Virus record (IMG/VR): IMGVR_UViG_3300021405_000007
Coordinates: 44,107-108,106 of that record
Strand: one strand, 5' to 3'
DNA length: 64,000 nt
Source of the DNA: a virus
Part shown: piece after piece, positions 7,518 to 62,088 of the stretch
How positions within the stretch are numbered: position 1 is the stretch's first letter
Layout: each line of letters starts with the position of its first letter
Notes under the pieces: generated by a model
What the model saw: the letters and a program-made list of their open reading frames with translations, nothing else
The model's database searches: none
What the model was told of the DNA's origin: nothing
Made by a program: the position numbers and the translations under genes

Positions 7518-7546
7518 CTCTTCGGTAGATTTTTAAAAAACTTTAG
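7518..7546 (-). promoter_or_regulatory. Accessory-operon promoter element (AAAG-N15-CCG class), copy a
   Basis: On the minus strand this reads CTAAAG, a T/A-rich 15-base spacer, then CCGAAGAG, 37 bases upstream of the ATG at 7481. The same arrangement precedes eight other accessory genes or operons in the window. It stands head to head with the sigma-factor leader. Confidence 0.7.
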
Positions 7547-7679
7547 AAAAAAGTTGCATCTTTTGACAATAATCAGTAAACTATAATTAACTCATTGAGG
7601 GTAGTATAGCTAACTCTTCAAGATTCTTACCAAATTTGGTAAAATAATTAAAAAATTTTTATTAAATTTGGATTCAATC

Positions 7680-8870
7680 ATGCAAGATGACTTAGATATC
7701 GTCAACGAGAATGATATTCTTGTTATAGAGACGATAGTTTACAATGACAACTCTTCTTACGCTGAAGACAATTCTTCACCTTCCCTTAAAACCTATATAA
7801 GACAACTATCTAAATTTCCACTTCTTACCCGAGAACAAGAACTTTCGCTCACGAGAAACCTCAAAAAGAACCGTGAGATCCTTTATTCAGCCTTTATGAA
7901 AACCCCAGAATGTCGTCTAGAACTTATGCAAATGCTCAACGCTAAGGTAGGTAGAGCTCGTAGAATGTTTGATCATATAGCAGAAGCTACCGATGACGAT
8001 GAGAAGGTTCTGAATCTTCAAGAAGAGCTAGCCAATGCCATAAAAGATAATAACTTCTCCAAGAAAAATCACAAGAATTTTCAGAACTTAGTTATCCCTT
8101 TTAATGATTTTTATAGACTAGTTAATATTCTAAAAGCAAAAGAACTCACTCCTGAAGTCTCTAAAGCCCTCAATGAATACAACCAAATGAAGAAAAGGTT
8201 GTCAGAGTGTAATCTTCGTTTAGTCTTCGCTAGGGCTAAGAGATTTATGAATAGAGGCATGTCTTTAGAGGATCTTATCCAAGAGGGTAACGTGGGATTA
8301 CTTAAGGCAATTGAGAAGTATAATCCAGAAAAAGGAAACAAATTCAGCACTTATGCTACTTGGTGGATTGATCAAGCTTTTGGCCGCGCTTTAGTGGACA
8401 AAAGTAAACTTGTACGTATCCCTGTACATATGGTTGATTCCATCAATAAAGTCAATAAAGCTTTTCAGACTCTTTCTGAGACTCTGACACATGAACCTAG
8501 CAATGAAGAAATAGCAAAACTTACGGGACTAACTCTAGAGAAAGTTCGAAAAGTCAGAAACTCCATTATTCTAAAAGCTAAGTACCTTCAAGAATTTCAA
8601 AATGATAAAGCTCTTCCTAAAATTATGGATTTTCCCGACGAGTCTAAAAATCCCGAAGAGCAACTCGAAGAGAAAGAATTAAGTGTTAAAGTACGGGAAT
8701 TTTTAGCAACTCTTTCGCCGCAAGAAGAAAAGATTTTAAGACTCAGGTTCGGAATTGGTGAAGCGAGAAGCTATGAAGTACAAGAAATAGCGAACACTGT
8801 AAAATTAACACGTCAAAGAGTTTCTCAAATTCTCAATAAGACTAAGAAATTATGGGAATTTAAGGTATAA
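7680..8870 (+). CDS. Sigma-70-family RNA polymerase sigma factor
   Basis: 396 residues from ATG 7680; an in-frame TTG at 7668 is an alternative. Regions can be read in order: 1.2 (SLKTYIRQLSKFPLLTREQE), a divergent non-conserved segment, 2.1-2.4 (NLRLVFARAKRFMNRGMSLE; DLIQEGNVGLLKAIEKYNPE; FSTYATWWIDQA; VRIPVHM), region 3 (EPSNEEIAKLTGLTLEKV) and region 4 (LSPQEEKILRLRFGIGEARS; QEIANTVKLTRQRVSQILNK). It therefore has the full set of core-binding, -10 and -35 domains of a housekeeping-type sigma. Region 2.4 is diverged from RpoD (GRALVDKSKL). TGGTAAAAT at 7637-7645 may be its promoter. Placed within the structural genes, it probably redirects host polymerase to phage promoters. Confidence 0.92.
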   Translation: MQDDLDIVNENDILVIETIVYNDNSSYAEDNSSPSLKTYIRQLSKFPLLTREQELSLTRNLKKNREILYSAFMKTPECRLELMQMLNAKVGRARRMFDHIAEATDDDEKVLNLQEELANAIKDNNFSKKNHKNFQNLVIPFNDFYRLVNILKAKELTPEVSKALNEYNQMKKRLSECNLRLVFARAKRFMNRGMSLEDLIQEGNVGLLKAIEKYNPEKGNKFSTYATWWIDQAFGRALVDKSKLVRIPVHMVDSINKVNKAFQTLSETLTHEPSNEEIAKLTGLTLEKVRKVRNSIILKAKYLQEFQNDKALPKIMDFPDESKNPEEQLEEKELSVKVREFLATLSPQEEKILRLRFGIGEARSYEVQEIANTVKLTRQRVSQILNKTKKLWEFKV

Positions 8871-8876
8871 TTTAGA

Positions 8877-9641
8877 ATGGCCTCGAATGAAATTACATTC
8901 AAAATTAGTGATGAAATCAAGAAGTTAGGTCAAGACTTAGAAGCCTTAGCACCTAGAATTCGTGATGAGCTAAATGGCATTGTTGGAGATTTAGCAAAAG
9001 CTACCTACAATCAAATAGTGGCAAAAGCTCAAATGGAGCTTCATAGCACCAGATTAGACTACCTTAGAGGTTTACAATTTCAACAAGTTGGCCCTAATGA
9101 CTATATGATAAGTTTGGATGGTTTTTTTGCTAATTCATTAGAAGATGGTCGGCCACCTTATTCTTTGAATGAGGCGCTGCTCAAGTCAGCCAAAGAGGTA
9201 AGCACGGGTAGTAGAGCGGGTGAACCTTGGGTTCGAAAGAACAAACAAGGGAAGCGTTATGCGGCTGTACCATTTGAACAGTCTCAAATGAGAGTAGAAA
9301 TGGGTTTGCCTACTTTGAGAGTTACAAACCCTTTTACCGATAAAAAACAAAAGATAAATCAACTATTTAAAGATTTTGATAAAAATATAATTCAAGGAAA
9401 AGTAGGTAGTTTTAACATCCCTAGTGCACCTAACGAACTGCAAGGATTGACTAAATACCAACACACAAATAAAGAAACCGGCAAAACTAGAAGTACTTAC
9501 GTGACTTTTAGAATGATCAGTGAAAATGGTAAACAATGGACTCACCCCGGTTTTTCTGGACTTCATGCTTTCGAAGAAGCCATGAAAATGGTAGACGTCC
9601 AATTTGAAAAAATGCTAAATGAATTATTTGATAAAATATAA
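8877..9641 (+). CDS. Neck / tail-completion protein (HK97 gp10-like pattern)
   Basis: 254 residues, starting 4 bases after the sigma stop. AGGTATAATT at 8863-8872 could serve as ribosome-binding site (AAGG) or as a -10 too close to the ATG for a normal leader. The N-terminal helix (IRDELNGIVGDLAKATYNQI), LHSTRLDYLRGL, a short DYMISLDGFF strand, an EDG-PP acidic turn and a KRYAAVPFEQ segment follow the layout of HK97 gp10-type tail-completion proteins common in tailed phages. The C-terminal WTHPGFSGLHAFEEAM helix fits as well. Position between head connectors and sheath supports this. Confidence 0.65.
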   Translation: MASNEITFKISDEIKKLGQDLEALAPRIRDELNGIVGDLAKATYNQIVAKAQMELHSTRLDYLRGLQFQQVGPNDYMISLDGFFANSLEDGRPPYSLNEALLKSAKEVSTGSRAGEPWVRKNKQGKRYAAVPFEQSQMRVEMGLPTLRVTNPFTDKKQKINQLFKDFDKNIIQGKVGSFNIPSAPNELQGLTKYQHTNKETGKTRSTYVTFRMISENGKQWTHPGFSGLHAFEEAMKMVDVQFEKMLNELFDKI

Positions 9642-9650
9642 GGTATTGAT

Positions 9651-22314: not shown

Positions 22315-22377
22315 TTATCTTTCAAAATTATTTTGAAACGTCTGAAGGTATTCCGGAACTTGTTTAAATTTTTTCAT
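22315..22377 (-). CDS. Possible 20-residue coupled peptide
   Basis: The ATG at 22377 overlaps the oxygenase stop as ATGA and the frame runs MKKFKQVPEYLQTFQNNFER to a TAA five bases before the next ATG. There is no strong ribosome-binding site of its own. It may be a small peptide or simply a bridge that carries ribosomes to the 22310 start. Confidence 0.35.
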   Translation of the reverse strand: MKKFKQVPEYLQTFQNNFER

Positions 22378-23363
22378 TTTAATCCTATCTCCTTTAAACG
22401 TTCTTCTAAGAACTCTCTTGCAGTATATCTCTCCGAAAGAATAAAGTCACTAGGAGGATGAAAGAAAAAGGGTATTGAATAGCGACTATGTTCTTCACCC
22501 CACCTAGTATTAATAACTCTATGAGTAGTGCTTTTAAGTGCGCCTCCAGTCAATTCCTGCAGCATATCTCCAATATTCACAATTATCAACCTGCTTGAAG
22601 TAGGCGCACTTATCCAAGAACCATCCGAAGCCTTTATTTGCAGTCCAGTTGATCGAGAAGCTGGAAGTAAGGTGAGTAGATTGATATCCTCATGTTCAGC
22701 TGCTCGCATACCTATAGGATTAGCCCCAGTTGGAGGATAGTGTAGCACTCTTAATAAAGAGTTATTTTTTGTAGTGTCTTTAGCAATTTTTGAAAGTTGG
22801 GGTAACTTCAAGTCTTTGGCTATAACATTGATCAATATACCACCTAACTCGTCTAAAGCATTATAAGCTAGAGCGAAATTGGATAAATGGAAGGGGGATA
22901 CTAAGGAATGCGGAATATGCAAAAACTCCTTTAAATCAGGAATAGTTTGATCTTTAGCTTTTTCAGTTTTAAAGGGGGTATAGCCTATTTGACCATTTGT
23001 TTCTGGATAATGAAAAATCATTTTAAATTGAAGAGCTTGAGCAAAAAAATGTTCAGCAGCATCTTTAGCTGCATGCAAGTGATATGTTTTAAAATTGGCA
23101 AGCCAATCAATAGGGTTAATAGCAGCAAAACCAATAGTTTTAAAGGCTTGCAATAATTCTTGAGGGCTAGTTACCACAGGAATGGTTTTTGTGGTAAGGT
23201 TGTTACAATGCTCAATATAAGCTTCAGTCTGTCTTTCTTCGATTAATTTTAAAACTTTCAATAAAGTTGAAACTTCCACAATATTTGTTGGACTCGTAGA
23301 TTGTGAATAAGTAGCCATTTGTTTTTGTAATTCGGCCAAAATTCTATTTTTTAGAATTTCCAT
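22374..23363 (-). CDS. 2-oxoglutarate/Fe(II) oxygenase, isopenicillin-N-synthase type
   Basis: 329 residues from ATG 23363 behind GGAGGT. The facial triad reads H224-x-D226 (AAEHEDINLL) and H281 (STTHRV), and the 2-oxoglutarate clamp R294-x-S296 (RYSIPFFFHPP). The N-terminal DIOX_N-like part (LLQAFKTIGFAAINPI, then a helix and FHYPE) and the segment NSLLRVLHYPP-G are typical of the plant/bacterial IPNS-like family rather than of AlkB, TET/JBP or PHYH-type enzymes. The substrate is unknown; cytosolic oxidation of a small molecule is the family norm. It sits in the same operon as thyX and nrdJ, so a nucleotide-linked role is possible. Confidence 0.88.
   Translation of the reverse strand: MEILKNRILAELQKQMATYSQSTSPTNIVEVSTLLKVLKLIEERQTEAYIEHCNNLTTKTIPVVTSPQELLQAFKTIGFAAINPIDWLANFKTYHLHAAKDAAEHFFAQALQFKMIFHYPETNGQIGYTPFKTEKAKDQTIPDLKEFLHIPHSLVSPFHLSNFALAYNALDELGGILINVIAKDLKLPQLSKIAKDTTKNNSLLRVLHYPPTGANPIGMRAAEHEDINLLTLLPASRSTGLQIKASDGSWISAPTSSRLIIVNIGDMLQELTGGALKSTTHRVINTRWGEEHSRYSIPFFFHPPSDFILSERYTAREFLEERLKEIGLK
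23156..23181. repeat. 26-bp direct repeat, copy 2 (inside the 2OG-oxygenase gene)
   Basis: Identical to 21603-21628. Here it is in-frame coding sequence of the oxygenase, so this copy is presumably the source. Confidence 0.85.
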
Positions 23364-23382: not shown

Positions 23383-23412
23383 CTCTTTGGAATTCTATTT
23401 AAAAAACTTTAA
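23383..23412 (-). promoter_or_regulatory. Accessory-operon promoter element, copy b
   Basis: On the minus strand: TTAAAG, a 16-base T/A-rich spacer, then CCAAAGAG. This differs from the consensus by A in place of the G of CCG. It lies between the thyX stop and the oxygenase start (23363), preceding the GGAGGT site. Confidence 0.55.
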
Positions 23413-23421: not shown

Positions 23422-24126
23422 TTAAATATTCCAATTATTGGCTTTCAAAGCAGAAATTGCTATAGGACATACATTAGCCTTTTCAACTGCTTCAAGCATC
23501 AATTCAGCCACTTTTCTAATTTCTGGTTGAGCGTGCTCAGAATTACGTAACTTTTGGTAATTTGCAAAAGATCTTAAATTAAAGATGGTTACACGTTCAG
23601 TCATATTATTTTGAGGCAAAACCCCTCGGAAAAACTCTCTACAGCGTTTATATTCTTTATTTGTAATGATTTTGTGTTCTTCGCACCCTTTAAACTCCTT
23701 AAGAATTAAACTATAGAAAAGGTTAGTTTTTTTGCACAATTCCTTGTAAGTCTCGGTAATTTCTCCAGAAATGGAGTTGTCAGCTCTACTCATAATCTCT
23801 TTAATGTCGTCAGGTATATTCAGCCATTCACTAGGCATTGTACGATACCGACCAGACATTCCGTTATGGGAACCTATTCTGTGAGTCATGTGCTGGCGGT
23901 CAGTTTGAATAGGCATTTTTATCCAAAACCTAAGAACCACGGATTCAATGGGAGAAGCATGTTTTTGATCGATTAGTAATTTGACAATTCTTTCTACGTC
24001 TAAGTCTGTCTTTGAATTTTTTGATGAAAGGGTGTTGGAGGAAGTCCAAGCTGCCTCGGCAATGGCACGATCAGAGCCCATCCAATCTTGGAGTTCTACT
24101 TGAATTTGATTATTGTTTACGGTCAT
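23422..24126 (-). CDS. thyX: Flavin-dependent thymidylate synthase
   Basis: 234 residues from ATG 24126 behind GAGGT. The ThyX signature is at 77-94: RQHMTHRIGSHNGMSGRY, corresponding to the family RHRxxSxNxxSxRY motif, with H82/R83, S86, N88, S91, R93 and Y94. The usual first R of RHR is T81. The early KHASPIESVVLRFWIKMPIQ stretch and the later REFFRGVLPQNNMT match the flavin/dUMP pocket segments. It converts dUMP to dTMP using methylene-folate and FAD. With nrdJ and dut it forms a thymidine-supply set. Confidence 0.95.
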   Translation of the reverse strand: MTVNNNQIQVELQDWMGSDRAIAEAAWTSSNTLSSKNSKTDLDVERIVKLLIDQKHASPIESVVLRFWIKMPIQTDRQHMTHRIGSHNGMSGRYRTMPSEWLNIPDDIKEIMSRADNSISGEITETYKELCKKTNLFYSLILKEFKGCEEHKIITNKEYKRCREFFRGVLPQNNMTERVTIFNLRSFANYQKLRNSEHAQPEIRKVAELMLEAVEKANVCPIAISALKANNWNI

Positions 24127-24139: not shown

Positions 24140-24544
24140 CTATAATTCTTTCTGAATTTGTTTTCTGATGGCTTCCAGCCATTTTGCCTTAGCTTTTTCT
24201 ATCTTTAGATTGTATTCGATCTCTTCTTTAAGAAGTTTCTTTCTTCTTTCATAACTACCCCTTTTAGTAATTGAGATTTTAATATATTTTTTAAATAAAT
24301 AACCATATGACAATACTGAAAAAATAAAAACACTCAGCGAATAAGCTATCGCGCCCCACATTAATTGCCCGAACTCAGAACTTTGCATCCCAAATACAAA
24401 GGCTACAGGTATAGAAATGAGGTATATCAATACAGAAATCACAAAACATCGTATAAATATTGAAGCATTCCAAGCAAATAATCCTACAGTAAATGGCAGT
24501 GTCATAGGTATATAAAACATTAACGAAAATAATAATTCCATCAT
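24140..24544 (-). CDS. Membrane protein with a cytoplasmic helical tail
   Basis: 134 residues; ATGATG at 24544/24541 behind AAGGAA. Three or more hydrophobic segments fill residues 1-90 (LLFSLMFYIPMTLPFTVGLF; FVISVLIYLISIPVAFVFGM; YSLSVFIFSVLSYGYLF). A Lys/Glu-rich helix follows (RRKKLLKEEIEYNLKIEKAK). No family recognised; an inner-membrane location is predicted. Confidence 0.65.
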   Translation of the reverse strand: MMELLFSLMFYIPMTLPFTVGLFAWNASIFIRCFVISVLIYLISIPVAFVFGMQSSEFGQLMWGAIAYSLSVFIFSVLSYGYLFKKYIKISITKRGSYERRKKLLKEEIEYNLKIEKAKAKWLEAIRKQIQKEL

Positions 24545-24576: not shown

Positions 24577-25023
24577 TCACGGAGCTTTTAATATAGTTGA
24601 TTGCATAGCCATTAATTTTTTAATCGCATCCGCCTGTGCCTGAATAGCGGCAGAAACCCCTTTAGTGCTATCAAAAACTATTACTCCGGAATTATTATAA
24701 ACTTGGTAAGATGTTTTGACTTCAGGATAATAATACTGAATCGCTGCTACGGCCTCTGGTACACTTGAATACCCTATATATTTGCCATCTTCGGCCACAG
24801 TTAAATGTTCAAGGGCATTAGCAATCTCTTGATCTGCCCACACCACCAGTAAAGTTTTGGCCTCCAATTTCTCGTTTAATAACTGAATTTCAGCATCGAT
24901 ACGAGCACTTTCTGTATTATCTGCTTTTTGCTCTTTGTTTTGAAGTGTTTCCATAGTGGCAAAAGGATCCGACTGCGGACCACAAGAAACTATGAAAAGG
25001 GTTAAGAGCAAAAATTTATACAT
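24577..25023 (-). CDS. Putative lipoprotein
   Basis: 148 residues. The N-terminus MYKFLLLTLFIVSCGPQSDP is a lipoprotein signal with lipobox Cys at residue 14. A coiled segment (ESARIDAEIQLLNEKLEAKT), a mixed middle (PEAVAAIQYYYPEVKTSYQV) and a C-terminal helix (KGVSAAIQAQADAIKKLMAM) follow. Expected at the outer or inner membrane of a Gram-negative host. Possible superinfection-exclusion or spanin-type role, but neither is shown. Confidence 0.7.
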   Translation of the reverse strand: MYKFLLLTLFIVSCGPQSDPFATMETLQNKEQKADNTESARIDAEIQLLNEKLEAKTLLVVWADQEIANALEHLTVAEDGKYIGYSSVPEAVAAIQYYYPEVKTSYQVYNNSGVIVFDSTKGVSAAIQAQADAIKKLMAMQSTILKAP

Positions 25024-25065: not shown

Positions 25066-25188
25066 TTACTTCTTTTTTTCTAAATTTGAAGGAAAATTGA
25101 CCAAGGAAGCACCAAGAATAAGCGCAACCGCATAACTTGATAGTGCAGTAATCATAAAGCTATAAATCAATTTATCTTTCATTTTCAT
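25066..25188 (-). CDS. Small single-span membrane protein
   Basis: 40 residues from ATG 25188, seven bases after GGAGG. Longer readings run through the promoter element and are rejected. A basic start (MKMKDK) is followed by LIYSFMITALSSYAVALILG, one membrane helix. It is the first gene after promoter copy c. Confidence 0.6.
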   Translation of the reverse strand: MKMKDKLIYSFMITALSSYAVALILGASLVNFPSNLEKKK

Positions 25189-25210: not shown

Positions 25211-25239
25211 CTCTTCGGCATTTTTAAGGAAAACTTTAG
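25211..25239 (-). promoter_or_regulatory. Accessory-operon promoter element, copy c
   Basis: On the minus strand: CTAAAG, 15-base spacer ending TTAAAAATG, then CCGAAGAG, close to the consensus. It lies at the 3' end of the 25236-25517 gene and 23 bases before the ATG at 25188. Confidence 0.7.
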
Positions 25240-25517
25240 CTCCAAATTATCGGAGGAGAACGACCCTCCCAACTATCAATTAACTCACAATACTTTAGCA
25301 TTTGAATATTAAAGTCATAAGAAATACCTTCCACAACAGATAAATGAGCATCATCGAGTGACATTTCAAGTATCTTGATGTTTCGTTGACAATCATAAAG
25401 TAATATGAATCCATCAACAGTGTAAAAAGTTTTAAGATATATATTTGATCTAGCGCCTATAAAGACATTTATATCAAAAATGGTATTAGAAAAATATGCC
25501 AAAGATTTAGCTCCCAC
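25236..25517 (-). CDS. Hypothetical protein downstream of nrdJ
   Basis: 93 residues if it starts at GTG 25517 behind AAAGGGGG, overlapping the nrdJ stop by 11 bases. A start at 25562 would overlap nrdJ by 56 bases. The sequence is beta/aromatic-rich (FDINVFIGARSNIYLKTFYT; DGFILLYDCQRNIKILEMSL). No family recognised. The start is uncertain. Confidence 0.5.
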   Translation of the reverse strand: MGAKSLAYFSNTIFDINVFIGARSNIYLKTFYTVDGFILLYDCQRNIKILEMSLDDAHLSVVEGISYDFNIQMLKYCELIDSWEGRSPPIIWS

Positions 25518-29232: not shown

Positions 29233-29394
29233 TTATCTCTTTTTAAAAAAATTAATAAAATCAAAAACTTGAAAAGTTGCACTAATTAAAAAACCTATCC
29301 ATAAAGGTGCGATCAAAAATAGTTGTGCATTTGAGAATAAAATTAATCCAAAACCAAATAAAAAAGCAAAAGCGCCACTCTCATATTTTTTCAT
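29233..29394 (-). CDS. 53-residue membrane protein
   Basis: ATG 29394 overlaps the upstream stop (ATGA). Two hydrophobic stretches (GAFAFLFGFGLILFSNAQLF; LIAPLWIGFLISATFQVFDF) and a basic end (FFKKR) suggest an inner-membrane hairpin. It precedes the tube-like gene by two bases. Confidence 0.6.
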   Translation of the reverse strand: MKKYESGAFAFLFGFGLILFSNAQLFLIAPLWIGFLISATFQVFDFINFFKKR

Positions 29395-29840
29395 TTCTTA
29401 ACCTCGTATTTGGATTTTTCTCTAGACCAATCCCCAGTAGCATTACAAGATGTACAAAATGACCAAAGCATTTGACCGGTATCGGCCCACGTATGATTAC
29501 AAAATCTATTCCCGGGTTCAGCGTGCTCTATAGTAGGGAATCTCTCGTTGGGACTGATCAGCAATCTTCTGTAAGCTGAGAAACTTTGATTACTTATCGC
29601 TGCATGGGTATATTCATGATCTACTATGATATAGTTTTGGGTATCTATAGATAGTTGTTTTATTTTCCCGAATAGATCTTTATAATAAATCACTAACATA
29701 TCGAGTCCAACTGAAGGATCATATTCGATTCTAAGTTCATCGATAATAAAGTCTTCCCACATGGAATAACCATAAGGATTAGTTCTCAACCAGCGATAAT
29801 TCTCATTGATTTTCAGATCTATTAGATCACGAACCACCAT
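29391..29840 (-). CDS. Hypothetical protein with a C-terminal Cys/His cluster
   Basis: 149 residues from ATG 29840 behind GGGAGG. The N-terminal two thirds are mixed alpha/beta with many Tyr and Trp. The C-terminus has RFCNHTWADTG then SFCTSCNATGDW, a C-x-H...C-x-x-C arrangement that could bind zinc. First gene of the operon with the tube-like protein. No family recognised. Confidence 0.6.
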   Translation of the reverse strand: MVVRDLIDLKINENYRWLRTNPYGYSMWEDFIIDELRIEYDPSVGLDMLVIYYKDLFGKIKQLSIDTQNYIIVDHEYTHAAISNQSFSAYRRLLISPNERFPTIEHAEPGNRFCNHTWADTGQMLWSFCTSCNATGDWSREKSKYEVKK

Positions 29841-29872: not shown

Positions 29873-29902
29873 CTTATCGGGGTTTGCACTAAAAACCTTT
29901 AG
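29873..29902 (-). promoter_or_regulatory. Accessory-operon promoter element, copy g
   Basis: On the minus strand: CTAAAG, 16-base spacer, CCGATAAG, 33 bases before the ATG at 29840. It faces away from the late-type element at 29947, which is 45 bases distant on the other strand. Confidence 0.6.
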
Positions 29903-43767: not shown

Positions 43768-43777
43768 TGTTAAAATT
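43768..43777 (+). promoter_or_regulatory. Putative late-block promoter (TGTTAAAATT)
   Basis: TGTTAAAATT begins immediately after the TAG of the 42457 gene and ends 37 bases before the ATG at 43815. AGATTTAAAA sits in the leader, and no clear Shine-Dalgarno is seen. Confidence 0.5.
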
Positions 43778-43814: not shown

Positions 43815-46800
43815 ATGGCAATTCTCCAAAGATTACTAGAACATAGCCAACAAAGATTTGATTTAGAAGATCTTAATACCATACTATCGGCGTTAAGATC
43901 AGACTCTAAATACTGGCAATTACTATTCAATGCTCAAACCTCCTATGTTGTGGCTGGTTTTGAAATAAGCTCAAGTTCTATAGGTCAAAGCAGCATAAAC
44001 ATCGTTCTTGACTCCTCTATTCTTTTAAATCCCAATAACTCCACAGATTTTTCTTGGTTTGCAGGTTTTTCGGGCGCTTCCCCTATAAATGTAGGAATTG
44101 AAGCGGGCGCTCTCGTAATCGGTAGAAACTATGTAGAATTACAACTTAGTACCATAGATAGCGTGCCCCTTCAAAGGGCTTTTTGGGATCCTACGGCCAA
44201 TAGTGGTGCCGGCGGCGAGTTTCAGCAACAAGTAAATACGACTACAGAACTACAAGTACAAGTGGTTGTTAACCAAACTGCTTTTCATGTTTCAAATCCT
44301 GACTTAATTCCTTTGGCGATCGTTGATGTCAACAGTAGCGCCTTAATTTCTGGCATTTTAGATCAAAGGAACTTATTTTTTAGACTTGGAACCAAAGACA
44401 CTCCTACTCTAGGTTGGACTTGGAATACTCAAATTGAACCCCCAACCACCCTCACCTTTGTAATGAATTCTAGCCCGGCCTTTGATGCCGGAGAAACCAT
44501 AACCTTCACCAGTGGTGCTACTGCAGTTCTAGAAACTGGAGGCACTAATAATATTCAAGCTACCTCTTTCTCAGGTTTGAACTTCGCATTGGGTGATACC
44601 GTAACAGGGCTGACTTCTGGTGCGACTGGAACACTGCAATCCTTTTATGAATCTTTTGTTGGTGCAGATAAAGATATCCTAAATCTGAAAGAGATGCTAA
44701 ATGCTTTAATGACCGAAATTAGAACATTAAAGGGCACCCCTTACTGGTATTCACAAAGTGTAGCACCTACTACACCGGGATTGTTAGACTTTATCAATAC
44801 CATCCCTGTTCCGCTCACAGCTGGCGCAAAATATGAATGGGATGGTTCAAATTTAGCAATCAGCGATGCCGCAACGAGCGGTCAATCTTCTGCAGATCAA
44901 ATAGCTGCTCTTAGAATTCCAGGGAAAAGCGGTACCTTTATTCTATCCCGCCAAGATGGAACAGTTAGTACTTCAGAGATAGCTATTGGTGATGGACAAA
45001 TTTTATTCATAATCCTACCTTCTGATCTCACAACTTCCCGCACTTATTCTGGAATTGGTACTGCATCCACTAACTTTCAAGTTATTGCCAGAAACAGTTT
45101 TGTAGCAACAGATAAAACTCATTGGTTAGCTTATAGGGAAGGTTCTAGGCTCATCACTCACGGTTTCGGTCAAATGGTCGCCGGCCAAGAGATGTCGATC
45201 GATGCTGGCGGAGGAGGCGGTGGTGGCGGAGTTCAAGAATTTATTCCATTCAGACTTTACGAAAATGTTCCGAATACCTCTGTATTAAATATTGGCCCAT
45301 CCGTAAATACGGACGACGTTTCAGGTAAAAAATCCGCTGTTTCAAGAAATCCACCCAATACTTCTGATTTCTTGGGTGGGACAATCTCCTTCCCAACTAC
45401 TTCAGGTAATAATGCAACACCTTCAGTTGGGTCAGCTGTTAGAATAGATATACAATCATCCTTCTATCTAAAAGTTTTAATCGCTGTTGATCTTAGTGGG
45501 AATATAGTGATAGTCCCCGGTGTTCAAGCATCTAGCCTTTCTGCAGCGAAACTACCAGCATTCCCTTATGGCGCATTTTCAATCGGGTATATAGTTTTAG
45601 TAAATACTGCTGGCGTTATAAGTTTAATTTCACAAACGAACATTTATCAGTTTGCCGACCTAGGGCATTTCGAAGACGGCAATAATGGTGGCGGAAACGT
45701 TTATAAAGAGGATGTTGACGTAGTTTCTAGCCCGAGTGGCAATGACCAAATGGCTCCAATTAGTTCGCCACCAGTAACAGTGACTATTCCTAAAGATACC
45801 AATCTGTATTTAGGAACTGGACTTGAAGCTCGAGTAACTAGTTCTTCTTCGACTGTTCAAGTTTCAAAGTCCAACCATGGTTTAACTACAGGTGATTTAG
45901 TAACAATCATTACTGCTTCTGCAATTGGTGGGATAACTGGGGGAAACCTTTCTCAAACCGCAACAGCCTGTACTGTAATCGATTCGAATAATTTTTCTTA
46001 TGTTGCAGGTGCTGCGGGCACTTACAATGACTACGGTACTTTAGATGCCACTTTCGCCAATACTACTAGACACTTTATAGTTGGTGATAGAACTCTGGTA
46101 GTTTATTTAAACGGTGTTGAACAAAGAAATGGTATTGATTATTCTGAGTTTGGCACATTTGGACTATCTTCTAATCAAATCATTTGGTTAACCACTATTG
46201 TTGTGGGCGACTTAGTAACCTACGAAATAGTAAGGGTGGGTGGATTAACCATTCTTCAAAATGGTTCCCCAGTTGCGACAGGGACCTTACAAGAATCTTA
46301 TAATAATGGTCAATCAATAGTAACTGAGTCTGGTGCGCCGGTAGTTATTAGCGGCCCTAGCGGTCAAAAATTGCTGCACGTAGCTGGTAACGTTCAAATT
46401 GATGGCGTCATAGATCCAACCGCTATCACTTTTACCCCTCAATCTTCCAATCCTTTAAGTTCTGGTCAACAAGGTATTTGGTTTGATAGCTCCAATGCTA
46501 TGCATACTTATGATGGAACTACTGACACCAACACTAATGCTAGTTTTGTAAAAATAAATGGTTCAAATCCTTTTACCGGCCCTCAATCAATGGGGAGCAA
46601 TAAGCTAACCAATGTAGCTACCCCAACAGTAAGTTCTGATGCAGCTACCAAAGGTTATGTTGATGGTCTGGCTATTAGTGCTTTGATTGGAGATGTCAGT
46701 GGAACGGGCCCCGGATCAACCAGCACCACTGTTAATTCAGTTGGTGGTAGTTCTGCTAGTAACATACATTCGGCTGAACAAGCCGCTAATGCCGCAACCA

Positions 46801-48473
46801 TCTTCCCAACAGCATCTACCATCTCAAAATGGGATGCACATATTAATCTAAGCGCTAATTCTTTTCTTTCTGGGTATGCAACCACAACTAGCTCTTTAAC
46901 TCCTTTAGTTTTAACTGTTTCAAGTGCTTATAGGCAATATATCACAGGAAGTGTCGCTCAAACTGTAACTTTACCTATAGTTAGTACTTTAACTATAGGT
47001 CAAGAATTTGAGATCGTTAATCTAGCGTCAACTTCTATAACCGTTGAATCTTCCGGATTGAATACCGTTCAAACAATGGCGGCTAATACAGTTGCTCGTT
47101 TTACTGCAATTTTGACGACCGGGACGACCGCAGCTTCATGGGCTGTTAAATATGGTTATTTATCGGGCGGTTCAGTAAACTCCGTCGCTTTATTTGATGC
47201 TAGTACAATTCCTATATATGGAGTTTCTGGAAGTCCGATCACGGCTGCAGGCACATTAGATTTAACTCTCGTCAATCAATCTGCTAATCAAGTGTTTGCA
47301 GGTCCTACAAGTGGGGGAGTAACCCAACCAGCATTTAGAGCTTTGGTAGCAACTGATATTCCAAGTCTCTCCAGCACTTATGTAACCCAAGCAGAGGTTG
47401 GTGCAGTAAGTGGTGTTGCCCCCTTAGATGTTTCTGGAAAAATTCCAATAGGTTACTTACCCTCCAGTGTATTTGAATACCAAGGTGCTTGGAATCCTAC
47501 AACTAACACTCCTACCTTAGTGGACGGAACTGGTCAATCTGGGTATACTTATTGGATTTCTGCAGCTTTTGCAGGCCCTATTTCTGGACTAAATAACTCC
47601 TCAATGATCAACTTCCAAATTGGAGATTTGGTCATTTACAATGGTTCACAGTGGGAGCTTACGACTCCCGCAGCGGGTGTGACTTCAGTTAATGGCGCAC
47701 AAGGAGCAGTAACGGTTAATGCTATTAGTCAGTTAACAGGGGATGTAACTGCGGGGCCAGCTTCGGGATCTGCTTCAGCCGCTGCTTCAGTGGCAAAAAT
47801 TCAAGGAACTGTAGTAAGCGGCACCACGGGTAGTGGGAACGTAGTATTTTCTGCTTCTCCGGTTTTAACAACACCTACTATTACGATCAAAGACAATGCA
47901 TTAACCCTTGAAAATTCAACGGATACTACTAAACAAGCTTTATTTAGCTTAGTTGGCATCACGACGGGGCATACCACAACTTTAGCCGTTCCTGAAGTTA
48001 ACGGCACTGACACCTTAGGTCTGATTGCTTTAGCTCAAAGCCCCACCAATAAAACCTTTGATGCTACCAGCTTTTTCCCAACGATCTCAGAACAAATGAT
48101 AGCTGGACAAAGCTTCTCAGCTAATACGATATATGCTGTCAGACTTGGGCAAGGGGGGCAAAGTGAAACAGTCGGTAGAATTTATGCCGCAGATCCAAGT
48201 GTTTCTGGCGGTGTGAACAACTATTTTGCAATCGGGTTGATATATCCAACTGGAGCGATCTCTGCAGGCGGTTCTGTAAATGTTGTAAAAATGGGCTTGA
48301 TAAATGTGGGTGCCTCAACTTATACTTCTGGCCAAACTGGAACTCCCTTATATTTGACTACTTCTGGCGCTGTAACTTTGACTAATCCTGGTGCTACAGA
48401 CGTTTTAACGATTAGAGTGGGGATAGTTAGAGATACTGCAAAAATAGAAGTTCAAATTTTAGGGTGGTATTAA
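43815..48473 (+). CDS. Long tail fibre / baseplate appendage protein
   Basis: 1552 residues. The N-terminal part (LLEHSQQRFDLEDLNTILSA) would dock to the baseplate. The rest is beta-rich with poly-Gly (residues about 460-475), a SNKLTNVATPTVSSDAATKG then YVD motif near 930 of a kind common in phage fibres, and repeated SGDVTAGPASGSA segments towards the end. A C-terminal sandwich domain (AEQM-type region, then VGASTYTSGQTGTPLYLTTS) closes the chain. No collagen-like GXY run and no chaperone tail is seen. Confidence 0.75.
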   Translation: MAILQRLLEHSQQRFDLEDLNTILSALRSDSKYWQLLFNAQTSYVVAGFEISSSSIGQSSINIVLDSSILLNPNNSTDFSWFAGFSGASPINVGIEAGALVIGRNYVELQLSTIDSVPLQRAFWDPTANSGAGGEFQQQVNTTTELQVQVVVNQTAFHVSNPDLIPLAIVDVNSSALISGILDQRNLFFRLGTKDTPTLGWTWNTQIEPPTTLTFVMNSSPAFDAGETITFTSGATAVLETGGTNNIQATSFSGLNFALGDTVTGLTSGATGTLQSFYESFVGADKDILNLKEMLNALMTEIRTLKGTPYWYSQSVAPTTPGLLDFINTIPVPLTAGAKYEWDGSNLAISDAATSGQSSADQIAALRIPGKSGTFILSRQDGTVSTSEIAIGDGQILFIILPSDLTTSRTYSGIGTASTNFQVIARNSFVATDKTHWLAYREGSRLITHGFGQMVAGQEMSIDAGGGGGGGGVQEFIPFRLYENVPNTSVLNIGPSVNTDDVSGKKSAVSRNPPNTSDFLGGTISFPTTSGNNATPSVGSAVRIDIQSSFYLKVLIAVDLSGNIVIVPGVQASSLSAAKLPAFPYGAFSIGYIVLVNTAGVISLISQTNIYQFADLGHFEDGNNGGGNVYKEDVDVVSSPSGNDQMAPISSPPVTVTIPKDTNLYLGTGLEARVTSSSSTVQVSKSNHGLTTGDLVTIITASAIGGITGGNLSQTATACTVIDSNNFSYVAGAAGTYNDYGTLDATFANTTRHFIVGDRTLVVYLNGVEQRNGIDYSEFGTFGLSSNQIIWLTTIVVGDLVTYEIVRVGGLTILQNGSPVATGTLQESYNNGQSIVTESGAPVVISGPSGQKLLHVAGNVQIDGVIDPTAITFTPQSSNPLSSGQQGIWFDSSNAMHTYDGTTDTNTNASFVKINGSNPFTGPQSMGSNKLTNVATPTVSSDAATKGYVDGLAISALIGDVSGTGPGSTSTTVNSVGGSSASNIHSAEQAANAATIFPTASTISKWDAHINLSANSFLSGYATTTSSLTPLVLTVSSAYRQYITGSVAQTVTLPIVSTLTIGQEFEIVNLASTSITVESSGLNTVQTMAANTVARFTAILTTGTTAASWAVKYGYLSGGSVNSVALFDASTIPIYGVSGSPITAAGTLDLTLVNQSANQVFAGPTSGGVTQPAFRALVATDIPSLSSTYVTQAEVGAVSGVAPLDVSGKIPIGYLPSSVFEYQGAWNPTTNTPTLVDGTGQSGYTYWISAAFAGPISGLNNSSMINFQIGDLVIYNGSQWELTTPAAGVTSVNGAQGAVTVNAISQLTGDVTAGPASGSASAAASVAKIQGTVVSGTTGSGNVVFSASPVLTTPTITIKDNALTLENSTDTTKQALFSLVGITTGHTTTLAVPEVNGTDTLGLIALAQSPTNKTFDATSFFPTISEQMIAGQSFSANTIYAVRLGQGGQSETVGRIYAADPSVSGGVNNYFAIGLIYPTGAISAGGSVNVVKMGLINVGASTYTSGQTGTPLYLTTSGAVTLTNPGATDVLTIRVGIVRDTAKIEVQILGWY

Positions 48474-50967: not shown

Positions 50968-51177
50968 CTACTCAAAGTTAAAACCCAAATCCCTCATCCA
51001 CTTGGTGGGAGCCTTAAGTCCCACCACTGCATAAACATCTGTAAATAACGACAAAACTTCTTGATCGGTATATTTTGGGACGTTTGACTGTACTTGCAAG
51101 CCATATGCCAAAAATTTGTCTTTATATACTGGTATTTGCGCTTCTTGTTCTGGGGTTAGGGTTTCTAAAACTGTCAT
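50968..51177 (-). CDS. Small conserved phage protein (EQEAQIPVYxDK pattern)
   Basis: 69 residues. TPEQEAQIPVYKDKFLAYGL then YTDQEVLSLFTDVYAVVGLK-P follows a sequence pattern seen at the N-terminus of many phage proteins of unknown function. Here only that short domain is present. Its upstream promoter element at 51221-51248 would make it a separate unit. Confidence 0.65.
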   Translation of the reverse strand: MTVLETLTPEQEAQIPVYKDKFLAYGLQVQSNVPKYTDQEVLSLFTDVYAVVGLKAPTKWMRDLGFNFE

Positions 51178-51220: not shown

Positions 51221-51248
51221 CTATCGGCATATTTATGAAAAACTTTAG
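51221..51248 (-). promoter_or_regulatory. Accessory-operon promoter element, copy d
   Basis: On the minus strand: CTAAAG, 15-base spacer ending TAAATATG, CCGATAG. It lies 44 bases before the ATG at 51177. Confidence 0.65.
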
Positions 51249-52270: not shown

Positions 52271-52882
52271 TTATACTTTGATGTTTAGTATTCTATCTAT
52301 AAGTCCCATAAATCCTATATTTTTATATTTATTATGTTCTTTTTTAATTTCTTCTCTTGATAAGGCCATTAGTCTTCCCCCATATCTGGAATTATTGGCG
52401 GCTCGCCAAACTTCATATTCATCCTCACTTATAGTCCAAATAGTTCTATTGCCATTTATACTTATCTCATTTCTACCTTCAAACCTCTCTGTTATTTCTT
52501 TATCACATAGATATTCGTCTCCAAATACTTCTGCATTTCCATGAATTTTAGAATTTCCAAATATTCTACTTCCTTTATGAATTTGGGCATTACCATAAAT
52601 CTTAGCATTGCCATAAATTTCAGCATCACGACATACGATAGCATCACCAAATACTTGAGCGTTCTCATATACCCTCCCTTGCGGGAATACCCAAGCATCT
52701 CCTTCTTGAGAGAGATTCGTTTCTTGTTCAATATATCCACCCTTTTCTCCTATTTCTACTGTAAATTTCTTTTCTTTTTCCGGACTAAATGGGTATTTAA
52801 ATTCTCTTATAGCAACTATTCGATATAGGGTACGTCCTTCTATTCTAACTAAGTCTGTTTTATCTAATTTATACTTATTCAT
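52271..52882 (-). CDS. Hexapeptide-repeat (left-handed beta-helix) protein, YdcK-like
   Basis: 203 residues from ATG 52882 behind AGAGGAG. The first 45 residues (LVRIEGRTLYRIVAIREFKY) are followed by GGYIEQETNLSQEGDAWVFP and then about ten six-residue turns with N/D-A-x-[VI]-x-G spacing (ENAQVFGDAIVCRDAEIYGN; AKIYGNAQIHKGSRIFGN). Such left-handed beta helices occur in acyltransferases and in phage and bacterial YdcK-type proteins; no catalytic His of a transferase can be fixed. The C-terminal region after residue 150 is different and helical. First gene of the operon driven by the element at 52990. Confidence 0.75.
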   Translation of the reverse strand: MNKYKLDKTDLVRIEGRTLYRIVAIREFKYPFSPEKEKKFTVEIGEKGGYIEQETNLSQEGDAWVFPQGRVYENAQVFGDAIVCRDAEIYGNAKIYGNAQIHKGSRIFGNSKIHGNAEVFGDEYLCDKEITERFEGRNEISINGNRTIWTISEDEYEVWRAANNSRYGGRLMALSREEIKKEHNKYKNIGFMGLIDRILNIKV

Positions 52883-52989: not shown

Positions 52990-53018
52990 CTTAACGGCTA
53001 TTCTAAGAAAAACTTTAG
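52990..53018 (-). promoter_or_regulatory. Accessory-operon promoter element, copy e
   Basis: On the minus strand: CTAAAG, 15-base spacer, CCGTTAAG, 108 bases before the ATG at 52882. The intervening leader (52883-52989) holds no convincing gene. Confidence 0.65.
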
Positions 53019-53093: not shown

Positions 53094-53103
53094 TGTTAAA
53101 ATT
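53094..53103 (+). promoter_or_regulatory. Putative late-block promoter (TGTTAAAATT)
   Basis: TGTTAAAATT ends 51 bases before the ATG at 53155. Its leader shares AGATTCAAATT with the one upstream of 30007. It faces away from promoter copy e 76 bases distant. Confidence 0.55.
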
Positions 53104-53154: not shown

Positions 53155-53775
53155 ATGGCAGCCCCAAAACACCAAGATAGTGACTTAGACAATCTTCATG
53201 AGCATGGTATACACGTAAAATCTAGAACAATCTTCTTAAGAAGACAAGATTATATCGATGGAGAAGAGTCAGATCCGGGGGTTGACCATGTTTTTGCTAC
53301 TAAATTCCTTAAGAATCTGTTTTTCTTAGAAATTTTATCCCATGAACCGATAACCATCATAATGTCGACTCCCGGAGGCCTCGAAACTGAGGGAATGGCT
53401 ATCTTTGATGCAATAAAAAGCTCTCCATGCCATATAACAATCGTTGTACGAGGGGAAGCATCAAGTATGGGGAGTTACATACTCCAGAGTGCCGATGAGC
53501 GTTGTATAGCTCCAAATTCAATTTTAATGATGCATTATGGTAGCAGCAATGGTTATGGATTAGATCACAAAAAAACAGCAAAGAGTTGGATCGTATTTGA
53601 AGAAAAATATGGAAAAAAATTGGATGAAATTTTATTTCAGAAAATATTATCTAAACATCCGGAATTTAAACGTAAAAAATTTGATGATATGTTAAATTTT
53701 GATACTATTCTTACGGCTGAGGAAGCCGTAGAGTTGGGGCTAGCTGATAAAATTTTGAGGGTAGATAAAGAGTGA
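53155..53775 (+). CDS. ClpP-like serine protease
   Basis: 206 residues. The Ser-protease fold of ClpP is visible: the oxyanion/turn MSTPGG, nucleophile S104 in RGEASSMGSYIL (ClpP GxAASMG), then H127 in ILMMHYGSS. The Asp of the triad should lie near residues 170-185. The N-terminal 25 residues are an extension. Phages use ClpP-fold enzymes as head-maturation proteases, so prohead processing is likely; the isolated position, driven by a late-type promoter, is unusual. Its stop converges with a minus-strand gene three bases away. Confidence 0.85.
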   Translation: MAAPKHQDSDLDNLHEHGIHVKSRTIFLRRQDYIDGEESDPGVDHVFATKFLKNLFFLEILSHEPITIIMSTPGGLETEGMAIFDAIKSSPCHITIVVRGEASSMGSYILQSADERCIAPNSILMMHYGSSNGYGLDHKKTAKSWIVFEEKYGKKLDEILFQKILSKHPEFKRKKFDDMLNFDTILTAEEAVELGLADKILRVDKE

Positions 53776-55843: not shown

Positions 55844-56263
55844 TTAATCAACAAATTCAATAATATCTTGAGGTTTAGTTAAGGAATTATAATCAAATTG
55901 TCCACTATAAGTATAACTATATATTTGGGTTCTTATTGGATATATACTATCCTTCATGAAATGGATTATCATAGATATATCTCCATTTCTAAGTCTCACC
56001 TTCCTACCTACATCATTCTCAGTAATTAGAATGACTGACTCTTCATATTCTGCTACTAGATCGAAGATAGATTGTTCTAAATAAGAACAAAATTTTCCAT
56101 CAATACTATAGTCTTCTGGTACGGCGGTCCCATTGGCATAAACTATTGTACAGGCTGCTTGTCCATCTCCTTCCACTCTAATTTCTCTAATAGCCTCTAC
56201 TTTAACATACTTAGTATTAGGTGTGTTTCTACATACATATTTCTTACCTACTTCTAGTTTCAT
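55844..56263 (-). CDS. Duplicated-family protein (LEVGKKYVC), copy 1
   Basis: 139 residues starting MKLEVGKKYVCRNTPNTKYV, with TENDVGRKVRLRNGDISMII and ending PQDIIEFVD. Paralogue of the 54160-54564 protein with similar Cys positions. Behind AGGAG. Function unknown. Confidence 0.65.
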   Translation of the reverse strand: MKLEVGKKYVCRNTPNTKYVKVEAIREIRVEGDGQAACTIVYANGTAVPEDYSIDGKFCSYLEQSIFDLVAEYEESVILITENDVGRKVRLRNGDISMIIHFMKDSIYPIRTQIYSYTYSGQFDYNSLTKPQDIIEFVD

Positions 56264-56275: not shown

Positions 56276-56621
56276 AATTTTTATCGTTCCAAAAGTCTTC
56301 TATTTGTTTATCGGCTAAATCTTTACTTTTCTTTAGTCCATTTTCTTGTTTTTTCAATTTCTTTAAAAGACTATCGATATCGGAGAGGTTTTTGTTCAAC
56401 TGTTTATTTTTTTCAGTAAGATCCTGAATTCTTTGATCAATAGCAGAACTATCTGTTTCTACTTTTTGAACATCGATTTTAACTTGTAAAGTCGCTATTT
56501 TATGCTCCTCGTAAGTTATATAATAACATAAAAATCCTATTATAAATATAAAAGCGATGGTGGTTTTGGTGTGAATTGATAGGATTATCTGTTTTAAAAT
56601 TTCAAATTTTTCAATATTCAT
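56274..56621 (-). CDS. Inner-membrane coiled-coil protein, spanin-like
   Basis: 115 residues from ATG 56621 behind AGGGGG, overlapping the upstream gene by four bases. One N-terminal membrane helix (TTIAFIFIIGFLCYYITYEE), then a long periplasmic coiled coil (IDQRIQDLTEKNKQLNKNLS; LLKKLKKQENGLKKSKDLAD). This is the shape of an i-spanin or Rz-like protein, matching the lysis context. The upstream partner with a signal peptide would be its counterpart. Confidence 0.6.
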   Translation of the reverse strand: MNIEKFEILKQIILSIHTKTTIAFIFIIGFLCYYITYEEHKIATLQVKIDVQKVETDSSAIDQRIQDLTEKNKQLNKNLSDIDSLLKKLKKQENGLKKSKDLADKQIEDFWNDKN

Positions 56622-57073
56622 AATGTTCCCCCTACGATCGCAGAAGCTGCAGTGTGTCCTACGATCCAAACAACTCCAACCCCACTTATGAGTGCCACTC
56701 CAATACCGGCAGCAAAAAATATAGCATCCCTAGTAGTTCTTGAAGACTCTTCATTTTCATATTTAGTGGTATATTTTTCAGCGGTAGTTTGCCATTCTTT
56801 GCTTTTTTGTTTTTCGGCAGCTAGAGCTACTCCATAATCTTTAATTTCTGAAGCTTGATCTAATGATTTTGATATCTGTAGGTTAATCTCTTTAAATTTT
56901 AAATCCAACTCTTCTTTATTATAACGAACCTCAGACTCTTTTTCTTTGCTAAAAAGAAAGCCATCGCAAGGTGCCACAATCCCCTGCTTCAACACTGTTA
57001 CTGGTTTAACACAGTCTTTTGCCCATAAACTAGGGGTTATTAAAAGTGTAAGTAAAATCAGTATTTTTTTCAT
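56618..57073 (-). CDS. Exported coiled-coil/membrane protein, lysis-associated candidate
   Basis: 151 residues. Signal peptide MKKILILLTLLITPSLWAKD, a short conserved-looking CVKPVTVLKQGIVAPCDGFL stretch, a coiled coil at about 50-110 and a C-terminal membrane segment (AIFFAAGIGVALISGVGVVW). The APCDGFLFS pattern is common near the start of phage lysis accessory proteins. Overlaps both neighbours by ATGA. Confidence 0.55.
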   Translation of the reverse strand: MKKILILLTLLITPSLWAKDCVKPVTVLKQGIVAPCDGFLFSKEKESEVRYNKEELDLKFKEINLQISKSLDQASEIKDYGVALAAEKQKSKEWQTTAEKYTTKYENEESSRTTRDAIFFAAGIGVALISGVGVVWIVGHTAASAIVGGTL

Positions 57074-58452
57074 TTCAGAGATCCTTTTTCTGTAAACTTA
57101 AGTATAATAATACCTATGATACTCAATCCTACTGAAATAATCAAACTCCAAACTAATAAAAGGCCTAAATTTTCATAATGGCCTCTTGGAACTACAAAAA
57201 TATGATTCAGAAACTTTGTTATTATAGAACTTAGCATTAAGGCGGCATTCATAAGGGAGGCTGTTAGGGCGAAGTAAGTAACCTTCCCTTCTTCGGGAGC
57301 ATTCAAAGCCACAATTATACCTAAAGGGATCATGGCTATTTGAGCTAGAGCATCAACTCCAGCAGAATCTAATAAAATTAAATGTTTAGCAGAGATTCCG
57401 AAATTATAACCATAGTAGATCATTAAATCGGGTAAAGATAAAATGAGTAATCCGAGTGTTGTCCAAACTAGAATTTTTATTAATTTTTCTTTTTTAACTA
57501 GAAAATTTCTAAATAAAACCATTGAGAGAATTGAAGCAGCGTATCCTATAGTAGAAAGAGTCCCTAAAAAGGCCGCATCAAAGTGCCAAATGTCCATATA
57601 ATACCAGGTGGCTGCAATACCAGCACTAGGATTGGTTCGGAATAGAAATAAGGCAAGCATTGTTATAAAAAAACCTAGTTTGTGGCTGTTTTCTAAATGC
57701 GGGACTTTTTTATATAATAAATAAGAGAATAACAGAACACTCATTAAAAAAACTAGTATTTGAGACCAAACATCGGAGAGAAATAATCCAAGGATGGTAG
57801 AAATCAAAAGAAACAAGACTCCTATCCCTATTAAAGATTTATCAGAAGCCTCATTTGATTTTTTGTAAGTATTTGAAATTGAGATTATTAATATTACTAA
57901 AGGGCTTATGGTACTCAGCATGAATATTGTTGCAATACTAAAATAAGAGGCCAATATACCAGAGATTGCAGCTCCAACCAACCCACCAGCAATCATCAAA
58001 TTTCTACTATAAAGTTGGAAGCTTGCCTTTTCTTGTTCATCAATAGCATTTTCGACTATTAAAACATCAAATAAAAGTCTAGTGATTACTACTGAAATTG
58101 TTCCAAAAAGATTGGTAAGTAATAAAGTTGTATACTCCCCTAAATGTATGAATAGCCAAGAATTTGGGAGAGCCGATTCAGCCATCCCTAGGGATGCTGC
58201 TATACCTAGAATACTCGCTAGAACTAAATAACTCTTGCGTTGATTGCCTATAATTGGCACAGCGTCTATGACTGAAGAAAAGAGTATTTTGGCGCTCCAA
58301 GGTAAACTAGTCCAAATCCCAATAGAGATCAATTGTTCTATGGATAAATGAACCATATTTTTATTGAAGAGGGCAGAGGCTACATTGGTTAAAGCAGTAA
58401 TACCTAAAAAAAAGTAAGAAAGAAGGATAAAAAAATTATTTACTTTTTTCAT
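57070..58452 (-). CDS. MFS transporter of the BT1 (folate-biopterin) type
   Basis: 460 residues with about twelve membrane segments. Two family segments are visible: LPWSAKILFSSVIDAVPIIG followed by NQRKSYLVL (BT1: PWxxKPLxGxxSDxxPIxGxRRxSYL), and LFDVLIVENA (BT1: DAxVVExA) near residue 130. Other hydrophobic stretches such as FLFRTNPSAGIAATWYYMDI also fit. BT1 proteins import folates or pterins across the inner membrane. A phage using ThyX needs reduced folate, which makes folate supply an attractive idea; the ligand is inferred. It starts 17 bases inside the upstream gene. Confidence 0.72.
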   Translation of the reverse strand: MKKVNNFFILLSYFFLGITALTNVASALFNKNMVHLSIEQLISIGIWTSLPWSAKILFSSVIDAVPIIGNQRKSYLVLASILGIAASLGMAESALPNSWLFIHLGEYTTLLLTNLFGTISVVITRLLFDVLIVENAIDEQEKASFQLYSRNLMIAGGLVGAAISGILASYFSIATIFMLSTISPLVILIISISNTYKKSNEASDKSLIGIGVLFLLISTILGLFLSDVWSQILVFLMSVLLFSYLLYKKVPHLENSHKLGFFITMLALFLFRTNPSAGIAATWYYMDIWHFDAAFLGTLSTIGYAASILSMVLFRNFLVKKEKLIKILVWTTLGLLILSLPDLMIYYGYNFGISAKHLILLDSAGVDALAQIAMIPLGIIVALNAPEEGKVTYFALTASLMNAALMLSSIITKFLNHIFVVPRGHYENLGLLLVWSLIISVGLSIIGIIILKFTEKGSLK

Positions 58453-60284: not shown

Positions 60285-60288
60285 TAGT

Positions 60289-60466: not shown

Positions 60467-60495
60467 CTCTTCGGTCTAATAATATAGAACTTTAA
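60467..60495 (-). promoter_or_regulatory. Accessory-operon promoter element, copy f
   Basis: On the minus strand: TTAAAG, 15-base spacer, CCGAAGAG, 20 bases before the ATG at 60447, heading the long operon 60447-53779. Confidence 0.65.
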
Positions 60496-60961: not shown

Positions 60962-60990
60962 TTAAAGTTTTTTTGTGTGGTGCCGAAAAG
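60962..60990 (+). promoter_or_regulatory. Accessory-operon promoter element, plus-strand copy P1
   Basis: TTAAAG, 15-base spacer, CCGAAAAG on the plus strand, 20 bases before the ATG at 61010 and just upstream of TGGAGGG. It rules out the longer reading of the first gene. Confidence 0.65.
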
Positions 60991-61009
60991 ATTAATGGAG
61001 GGTAAAACT

Positions 61010-61183
61010 ATGATAGTTTTAATAAGTGTTATTCTCGGTGTATTTGGTGGTTATCAAATAGGTTATGAGGATGGTAAAGATAAGCCTCGAACTCATGTGG
61101 AACAACATGAACTTCAAGTTCATTGCCCCCAAATTCATACCAAAGCAGATAGAAACCCACCCTTAAATTGCACCAAGGAATAA
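61010..61183 (+). CDS. Small membrane-anchored protein
   Basis: 57 residues from ATG 61010 behind GGAGGG. MIVLISVILGVFGGYQIGYE is a membrane helix; the rest (HVEQHELQVHCPQIHTKADR) is His-rich. Function unknown. Confidence 0.6.
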   Translation: MIVLISVILGVFGGYQIGYEDGKDKPRTHVEQHELQVHCPQIHTKADRNPPLNCTKE

Positions 61184-61186
61184 AAA

Positions 61187-61453: not shown

Positions 61454-61659
61454 GTGGAATTGAATTGCTACTAGCAATAGTATGTGGTTACTTTTTAGGC
61501 CACGTAGTTGGTTATTATAGAGGTTATGATCACTCTAGAAAAGATATGGAGAGGATTATTTATGCTATCGAAGAAGGTTCTAATAGAAAAGATGCGGAAA
61601 AACTTTATGTTGATTTACAAAAATCTTCTGGAGACAGTTCAGGGGAAAAACCAGCCTGA
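61450..61659 (+). CDS. Small membrane-anchored protein
   Basis: 69 residues with an N-terminal membrane helix (GIELLLAIVCGYFLGHVVGY, YRGYDHSRKD) and a charged tail. Overlaps the next gene by 53 bases. Function unknown; its GY-x-x-GY repeats resemble the 61010 protein's helix. Confidence 0.55.
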   Translation: MSGIELLLAIVCGYFLGHVVGYYRGYDHSRKDMERIIYAIEEGSNRKDAEKLYVDLQKSSGDSSGEKPA

Positions 61660-61870
61660 AATAGAAAATACTAGTGTCTCTAGATTAAAAGATTGGATTG
61701 ATCGGAGTTCGAAAGAATCTAAGTCAAAAGAGGAAAAGCTTAGAATTAAAGATATCAAGAAGTTGATTAAAGTAGTAGAAGAAGTAAAAAATATGCTGGA
61801 AAGGCATGATTTATTTTATCCAGATTTTGAACTAGTTTTAGCATTAGAATCTTTGGAGGAAGAAGCATGA
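61607..61870 (+). CDS. Helical hypothetical protein
   Basis: 87 residues from ATG 61607 behind GGAAAAAC; a longer reading from 61508 has more overlap and no site. Basic-acidic helices (RSSKESKSKEEKLRIKDIKK; LIKVVEEVKNMLERHDLFYP). The stop overlaps the next start (ATGA). No family. Confidence 0.5.
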   Translation: MLIYKNLLETVQGKNQPEIENTSVSRLKDWIDRSSKESKSKEEKLRIKDIKKLIKVVEEVKNMLERHDLFYPDFELVLALESLEEEA

Positions 61871-61938
61871 TAATATATATTTTATCTGTTATAACAGTGA
61901 TAGGTTTTTTTGTTTGTTACTCTTCTAGATACTCATGA
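61867..61938 (+). CDS. Truncated small membrane peptide
   Basis: ATG 61867 overlaps the previous stop. MIIYILSVITVIGFFVCYSS then RYS-stop: the last codons and the TGA come from an 84-bp stretch identical to the helicase gene. The frame may have been longer before that insertion. Confidence 0.45.
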   Translation: MIIYILSVITVIGFFVCYSSRYS

Positions 61939-62002
61939 ATAATTTTACCTGACGCATCCTTTTGTTTGACTAAAATTAATACTTGCTCATCCTTAGCTAT
62001 TT
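61919..62002. repeat. 84-bp exact direct repeat, copy 1 (outside the helicase gene)
   Basis: Identical, base for base, to 62837-62920, with mismatches just outside at both ends. Copy 2 lies within the minus-strand helicase gene (about residues 345-372). Here the plus-strand operon transcript would carry the antisense of that mRNA segment. Confidence 0.95.
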
Positions 62003-62058
62003 TTTAGCCATTTTTATCCCAATAATCTCGCCATTTTACAAAAAAATCACATTTCTGC

Positions 62059-62088
62059 CTAAAGCATAACCAAAAATATGCCGTATAG
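62059..62088 (+). promoter_or_regulatory. Accessory-operon promoter element, plus-strand copy P2
   Basis: CTAAAG, 16-base spacer ending AAAAATATG, CCGTATAG on the plus strand, 57 bases before the ATG at 62145. Confidence 0.55.

Follow-up and report, generated by a model that had tools for sequence, protein, structure and literature searches.

Putative sigma28-type promoters upstream of accessory operons in a complete contractile-tailed phage genome

In this study, we analyzed a 64,000-nucleotide stretch of virus DNA (the window), corresponding to positions 44107-108106 of a record of 108,106 bases, and identified a recurrent block upstream of many accessory operons whose sequence assigns it to the sigma28-type (FliA/SigD) promoters. 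It is reasonably likely, judging from sequence comparison, that these promoters are read by host RNA polymerase with the host's own sigma28. A sequence-only reading of the window had described the block as a phage-specific promoter class or activator site. There is good support for the view that a promoter class heads accessory operons; the label "phage-specific" is unsupported, as the block follows a published sigma28 consensus and arrays of it occur in other phages. Thus, the class is an already known one and not a new class of this phage.

The two ends of the record share a direct overlap of 126 nt (3-128 versus 107981-108106), which indicates that the genome is complete though the record is classed as linear. 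It contains genes of a contractile-tailed phage (myovirus), including tail sheath, baseplate, portal, family A DNA polymerase, DnaB-like helicase and chaperonin. Protein searches placed SPO1-like Bacillus phages among the portal and capsid relatives (~25-35% identity), and searches for a host clue gave low-identity relatives in SPO1-like, Flavobacterium, Bacteroides and Myxococcus phages. Megablast with window positions 1-25000 matched no phage record, and tRNA and Rfam searches of the window gave zero matches. Among cellular genome contigs, a related capsid gene was found in one bin only, Candidatus Omnitrophota. A cyanobacterial host, hinted at by a BT1-family transporter gene, was dropped because this family occurs in other bacteria too.

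Sequence, enrichment and location of the promoter class

The Escherichia coli sigma28 consensus is TAAAGTTT-n11-GCCGATAA (PMC2859248, Table 1). Sites in the window shared 11-15 of its 16 positions, and a site outside the window, at record position 36029, shared all 16. Eight positions reached at least 14 of 16 here, versus none in the reversed control. In the -35 element, TAAAG was present in all nine sites of the sequence-only reading and the full TAAAGTTT in six of them. As a class, the -10 element corresponds to GCCGATAA, with the consensus (A/G)CCGATAAG in this phage (G000) and in G002, which together with G001 is its closest relative; individual -10 elements vary, with CCGAAGAG in three sites, CCAAAGAG in one, and also CCGTTAAG. 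The gap between the two octamers was 11 or 12 nt, and no other length was observed at high score. It had been noted correctly that the block differs from the standard -35/-10 pair: the sites do not fit TTGACA-N16-18-TATAAT, and TTGAC...TANNNT was not enriched in the noncoding DNA of this genome (2 versus 3 in the reversed sequence). An activator site is unlikely, since both elements and the distance between them are those expected of a sigma promoter.

The pattern [CT]TAAAG-N15/16-CCG-W1-3-[AG]AG occurred nine times in the genome, compared with 0.07 per first-order-Markov shuffle (maximum 1) and zero in the reversed sequence. Eight of these nine matches were noncoding, while noncoding DNA makes up 18% of the genome, and looser forms of the motif were enriched as well. 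Scanning the spacing in TAAAG-Ns-CCG gave a sole peak at s=15-16, and unbiased dyad counting upstream of genes ranked GTTT-N12-CCGA first in this genome. With a cross-genome matrix trained on G002 only (whose sigma gene is 37% identical), 14 matches of at least 14 bits were found here, 11 of them noncoding, and none in the reversed control. At a threshold of at least 18 bits, the whole genome contained 14 matches (reversed sequence, 0), of which 12 were noncoding, so that the motif is not equally frequent inside genes; for 11 of these 14, a Shine-Dalgarno sequence and an ATG that opens a reading frame of 40 or more codons followed within 150 nt downstream.

All nine copies listed previously were confirmed in position and strand, with spacers of 15 nt in six and 16 nt in three, and each is followed by a Shine-Dalgarno sequence and a start codon 19-107 nt away. 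On the minus strand, the putative promoter at 7518-7546 (13/16 to the consensus) heads gene 7314-7481 and is divergent from the phage sigma gene, and a CCA variant at 23383-23412 (12/16) heads the gene of a 2OG-Fe(II) oxygenase (22374-23363, start near 23363). The site at 25211-25239 (14/16) heads a small ORF (25066-25188), after which genes 24577-25023, 24140-24544 and a thymidylate synthase-like gene (23422-24126) lie on the same strand. Gene 29391-29840 is headed by the site at 29873-29902 (14/16), and a motif site is also present in the matching syntenic interval of G001 and G002. Further minus-strand sites are located at 51221-51248 (15/16), before gene 50968-51177; at 52990-53018 (15/16), before the gene of a hexapeptide-repeat-like protein (52271-52882); and at 60467-60495 (12/16), before a minus-strand gene run that includes the BT1-family transporter (57070-58452). 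The plus strand carries a site at 60962-60990 (15/16), heading gene 61010-61183, and the weakest copy at 62059-62088 (11/16, 15.8 bits), heading gene 62145-62390.

A motif search of the whole genome, as had been suggested, added two sites within the window and some five elsewhere in the genome. The former are located at 516-544 on the plus strand (14/16), heading gene 588-974 that has orthologs in G001 and G002, and at 56307-56335 on the minus strand (13/16), within the end of the upstream gene and heading 55844-56263. The statement that nearly every accessory operon is headed by the block holds for many operons and is slightly too strong, because the ribonucleotide reductase gene (25507-27144, minus strand) has no upstream site.

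G001 and G002 also carry the BT1-family (folate/biopterin-type) transporter gene, which lies on the minus strand here, and in both the motif directly precedes it; we found the gene neither in five other relatives checked nor in any of the isolated phage records searched.

Sigma genes and the promoter class across phages

A full-length sigma-70-family factor of 400 aa (RpoD-like, regions 1.2-4) is encoded at 7668-8870 on the plus strand and is a candidate alternative reader. It scored 110.3 bits against the NCBIfam model TIGR02479 (FliA_WhiG), below the cut-off of 189.6; RpoD-type models were the closest, with 220-240 bits, likewise under their cut-offs. In G000, G001, G002, G003 and G006, the gene occupies the same position, flanked by two conserved genes of the virion module. 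Sigma70-type promoters are located directly upstream of it in G002 (TTGACA-N17-TAAGGT) and G001 (TTGACA-N17-TAGTAT); at 7563-7590 (plus strand) of the window, before the sigma gene, TTGACA and TATAAT are both present, only 13 nt apart.

Complete genomes of the same broad phage group, judged by terminal overlaps of 97-127 nt, showed all four combinations of sigma gene and motif: both in G000 and G002, sigma gene only in G020, motif only in G038, and neither in G009 and G011. Syntenic sigma orthologs in G003, G006 and G020 were accompanied by no motif match of at least 18 bits, and dyad counting revealed no convincing alternative gapped promoter in these three genomes. Conversely, the complete G038 as well as G039, G062 and G063 carry the motif with no sigma detectable, although one ORF of G038 (86 aa) gave a region-4-like match below threshold. 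G039, G062 and G063 contain 6-9 motif matches and share few or no genes with this phage; G039 and G062 are true phages with portal, head or replication genes. In G046 and G048, which have 11 and 18 motif matches with the full TAAAG kept, sigma-like proteins of 330-340 aa (G046:115710-116705 and G048:94199-95218) end before region 4.2, the part that reads the -35 element. In the complete and sigma-less G009 and G011, TTGAC-N16-18-TANNNT was enriched in noncoding DNA (17 versus 3 and 17 versus 4 in the reversed sequences).

A pattern scan of viral contigs revealed the motif class in many other phages among the matches listed. We examined 30 of the records, including overlapping or near-identical ones (G044/G062 and G041/G042); all were picked for at least one exact match, so that their counts give no estimate of prevalence. 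At least four TAAAG-N15/16-CCGATA sites were present in 16 of them, versus two matches of the backward-read control pattern over all 30, and sigma region 4 exceeded the cut-off in only one record. In L298, L302, L303, L359 and L364, in which no sigma gene was found, the motif overlies a sigma70 promoter (TTGACA...TATAAT), as in TAAAGTTTTTGCTTGACAATGCCGATAATTATAGTATAATAAG. Such superposition would be expected if host holoenzymes read both.

Candidate readers of the promoter classes

The occurrence of sigma gene and motif in all four combinations weakens the phage sigma as the reader. Region 4.2 is 29-41% identical among G000, G001 and G002 (region 2, 68-81%), while TAAAG is invariant in most sites of these phages; this also argues against the phage sigma, as a reader should keep its helix. 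The RpoD-like factor is thus probably not the reader of the sigma28-type class, and host polymerase with the host's own sigma28 is the reading that we prefer. In that case, transcription would start just downstream of CCG, much of the accessory gene set would be expressed via the host motility sigma, and structural operons would be transcribed by host sigma70 and/or the phage sigma. On the other hand, the motif and the sigma clade co-occur in the closest clade (G000, G001 and G002), the -10 element is atypical in several sites, and the motif-bearing phages in which no sigma was detected could encode unrecognized sigma factors.

Phages normally begin with the host housekeeping sigma and turn to factors of their own afterwards. 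Our initial hypothesis was a SPO1-like cascade, in which a host sigma70 promoter first drives synthesis of the phage sigma, which then redirects polymerase to the TAAAG/CCGATA class, an RpoD-like factor having converged on sigma28 specificity. The syntenic sigma slot in three motif-bearing genomes (G000, G001 and G002), the sigma70-type promoters before the gene in two of them, and the absence of the motif from the complete sigma-less relatives G009 and G011 are consistent with it, and so are DNA-contacting positions that differ from RpoD (TRQRVSQ versus TRERIRQ in region 4.2, and T440 to G). However, the T440 change is also present in the motif-free G003, the sigma orthologs without motif and the motif-bearing genomes without sigma run against such a role, and region 4.2 has diverged where TAAAG is fixed. 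This hypothesis lost ground with the single record containing sigma region 4 among the 30 picked by motif and with G038, which is complete, related and sigma-less; we now regard it as unlikely.

Another host factor with the same consensus, for instance a sigma of the WhiG type or, in an uncultured host group, an unusual major sigma, appears quite improbable as the reader. In its favor, Candidatus Omnitrophota is the source of the sole cellular bin with a related phage, and in this group FliA_WhiG exceeded its curated cut-off in 3 of 12 genomes sampled; nevertheless, the agreement with the classical flagellar consensus extends to details, and the spread of the motif over several unrelated phage lineages suggests that its reader is widespread. 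Chance or base composition, to which the AT-rich genome and the agreement level of the weakest site (equally common in reversed sequence) might point, is refuted for the motif class by the excess over shuffles, the zero reversed matches, the spacing peak, the intergenic bias and the recurrence in independent genomes, although individual weak sites could still be due to chance.

The presence of a phage sigma gene does not by itself reveal which promoters that sigma reads. Strand-specific word counting revealed a second class, TGTTAAAATT in this phage and TGnTATAATT in G001, G002, G003, G006 and G020 (TAATCTTA in its place in G046), about 40-55 nt before the starts of structural and other plus-strand genes. 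Here it is found on the plus strand at 1046-1055 (before 1102-1461), 36446-36455 (before the baseplate gene 36494-39031), 43768-43777 (before the tail gene 43815-48473) and 53094-53103 (before the ClpP-like gene 53155-53775). The baseplate genes it heads are orthologous in G000, G001 and G002, and the tail genes in G000 and G002. By its sequence, this class looks like an extended -10 promoter that lacks the -35 element. The phage sigma may more probably act at this second class of sites, or it may have another role; the sigma-less G011 also carries the second class, and hence host sigma70 could read it.

Implications and comparison with known systems

With somewhat less confidence than in host sigma28 as the reader, we tentatively propose that several unrelated phage lineages put much of their accessory transcription under the host flagellar sigma, that expression and perhaps productive infection depend on the host motility programme, and that some phages fuse sigma28 and sigma70 promoters as a hedge. 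A literature search of partial coverage found no report of flagellar-sigma promoter arrays in phages. If the proposal is true, phage gene expression would be tied to host motility, the arrays would offer a signature by which motile hosts of uncultured phages could be predicted from sequence, and they would represent a natural set of sigma28 promoters.

SPO1-type phages use sigma cascades with gp28 and gp33/34. A phage-encoded sigma factor is shared with these systems, and SPO1-like Bacillus phages are among the relatives of the portal and major capsid proteins. In contrast, the factor encoded here is a full-length, RpoD-like sigma, and the promoter class also occurs where no phage sigma was found.

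With the sigma28 flagellar promoters of E. coli aer and trg (PMC2859248), the sites share the TAAAGTTT -35 element, the GCCGATAA -10 element, the 11-nt gap and genes with a Shine-Dalgarno sequence. In this phage, however, they head accessory operons and not genes for flagella or chemotaxis; roughly half of them have a 12-nt gap, and several -10 elements are CCGAAGAG. Phages phiEco32 and 7-11 encode a sigma-like protein and have late promoters (PMC8948821). The common features are a phage protein resembling bacterial sigma factors and a distinct phage promoter class, whereas the class described here corresponds to the consensus of a host sigma and its distribution does not follow that of the phage sigma gene.
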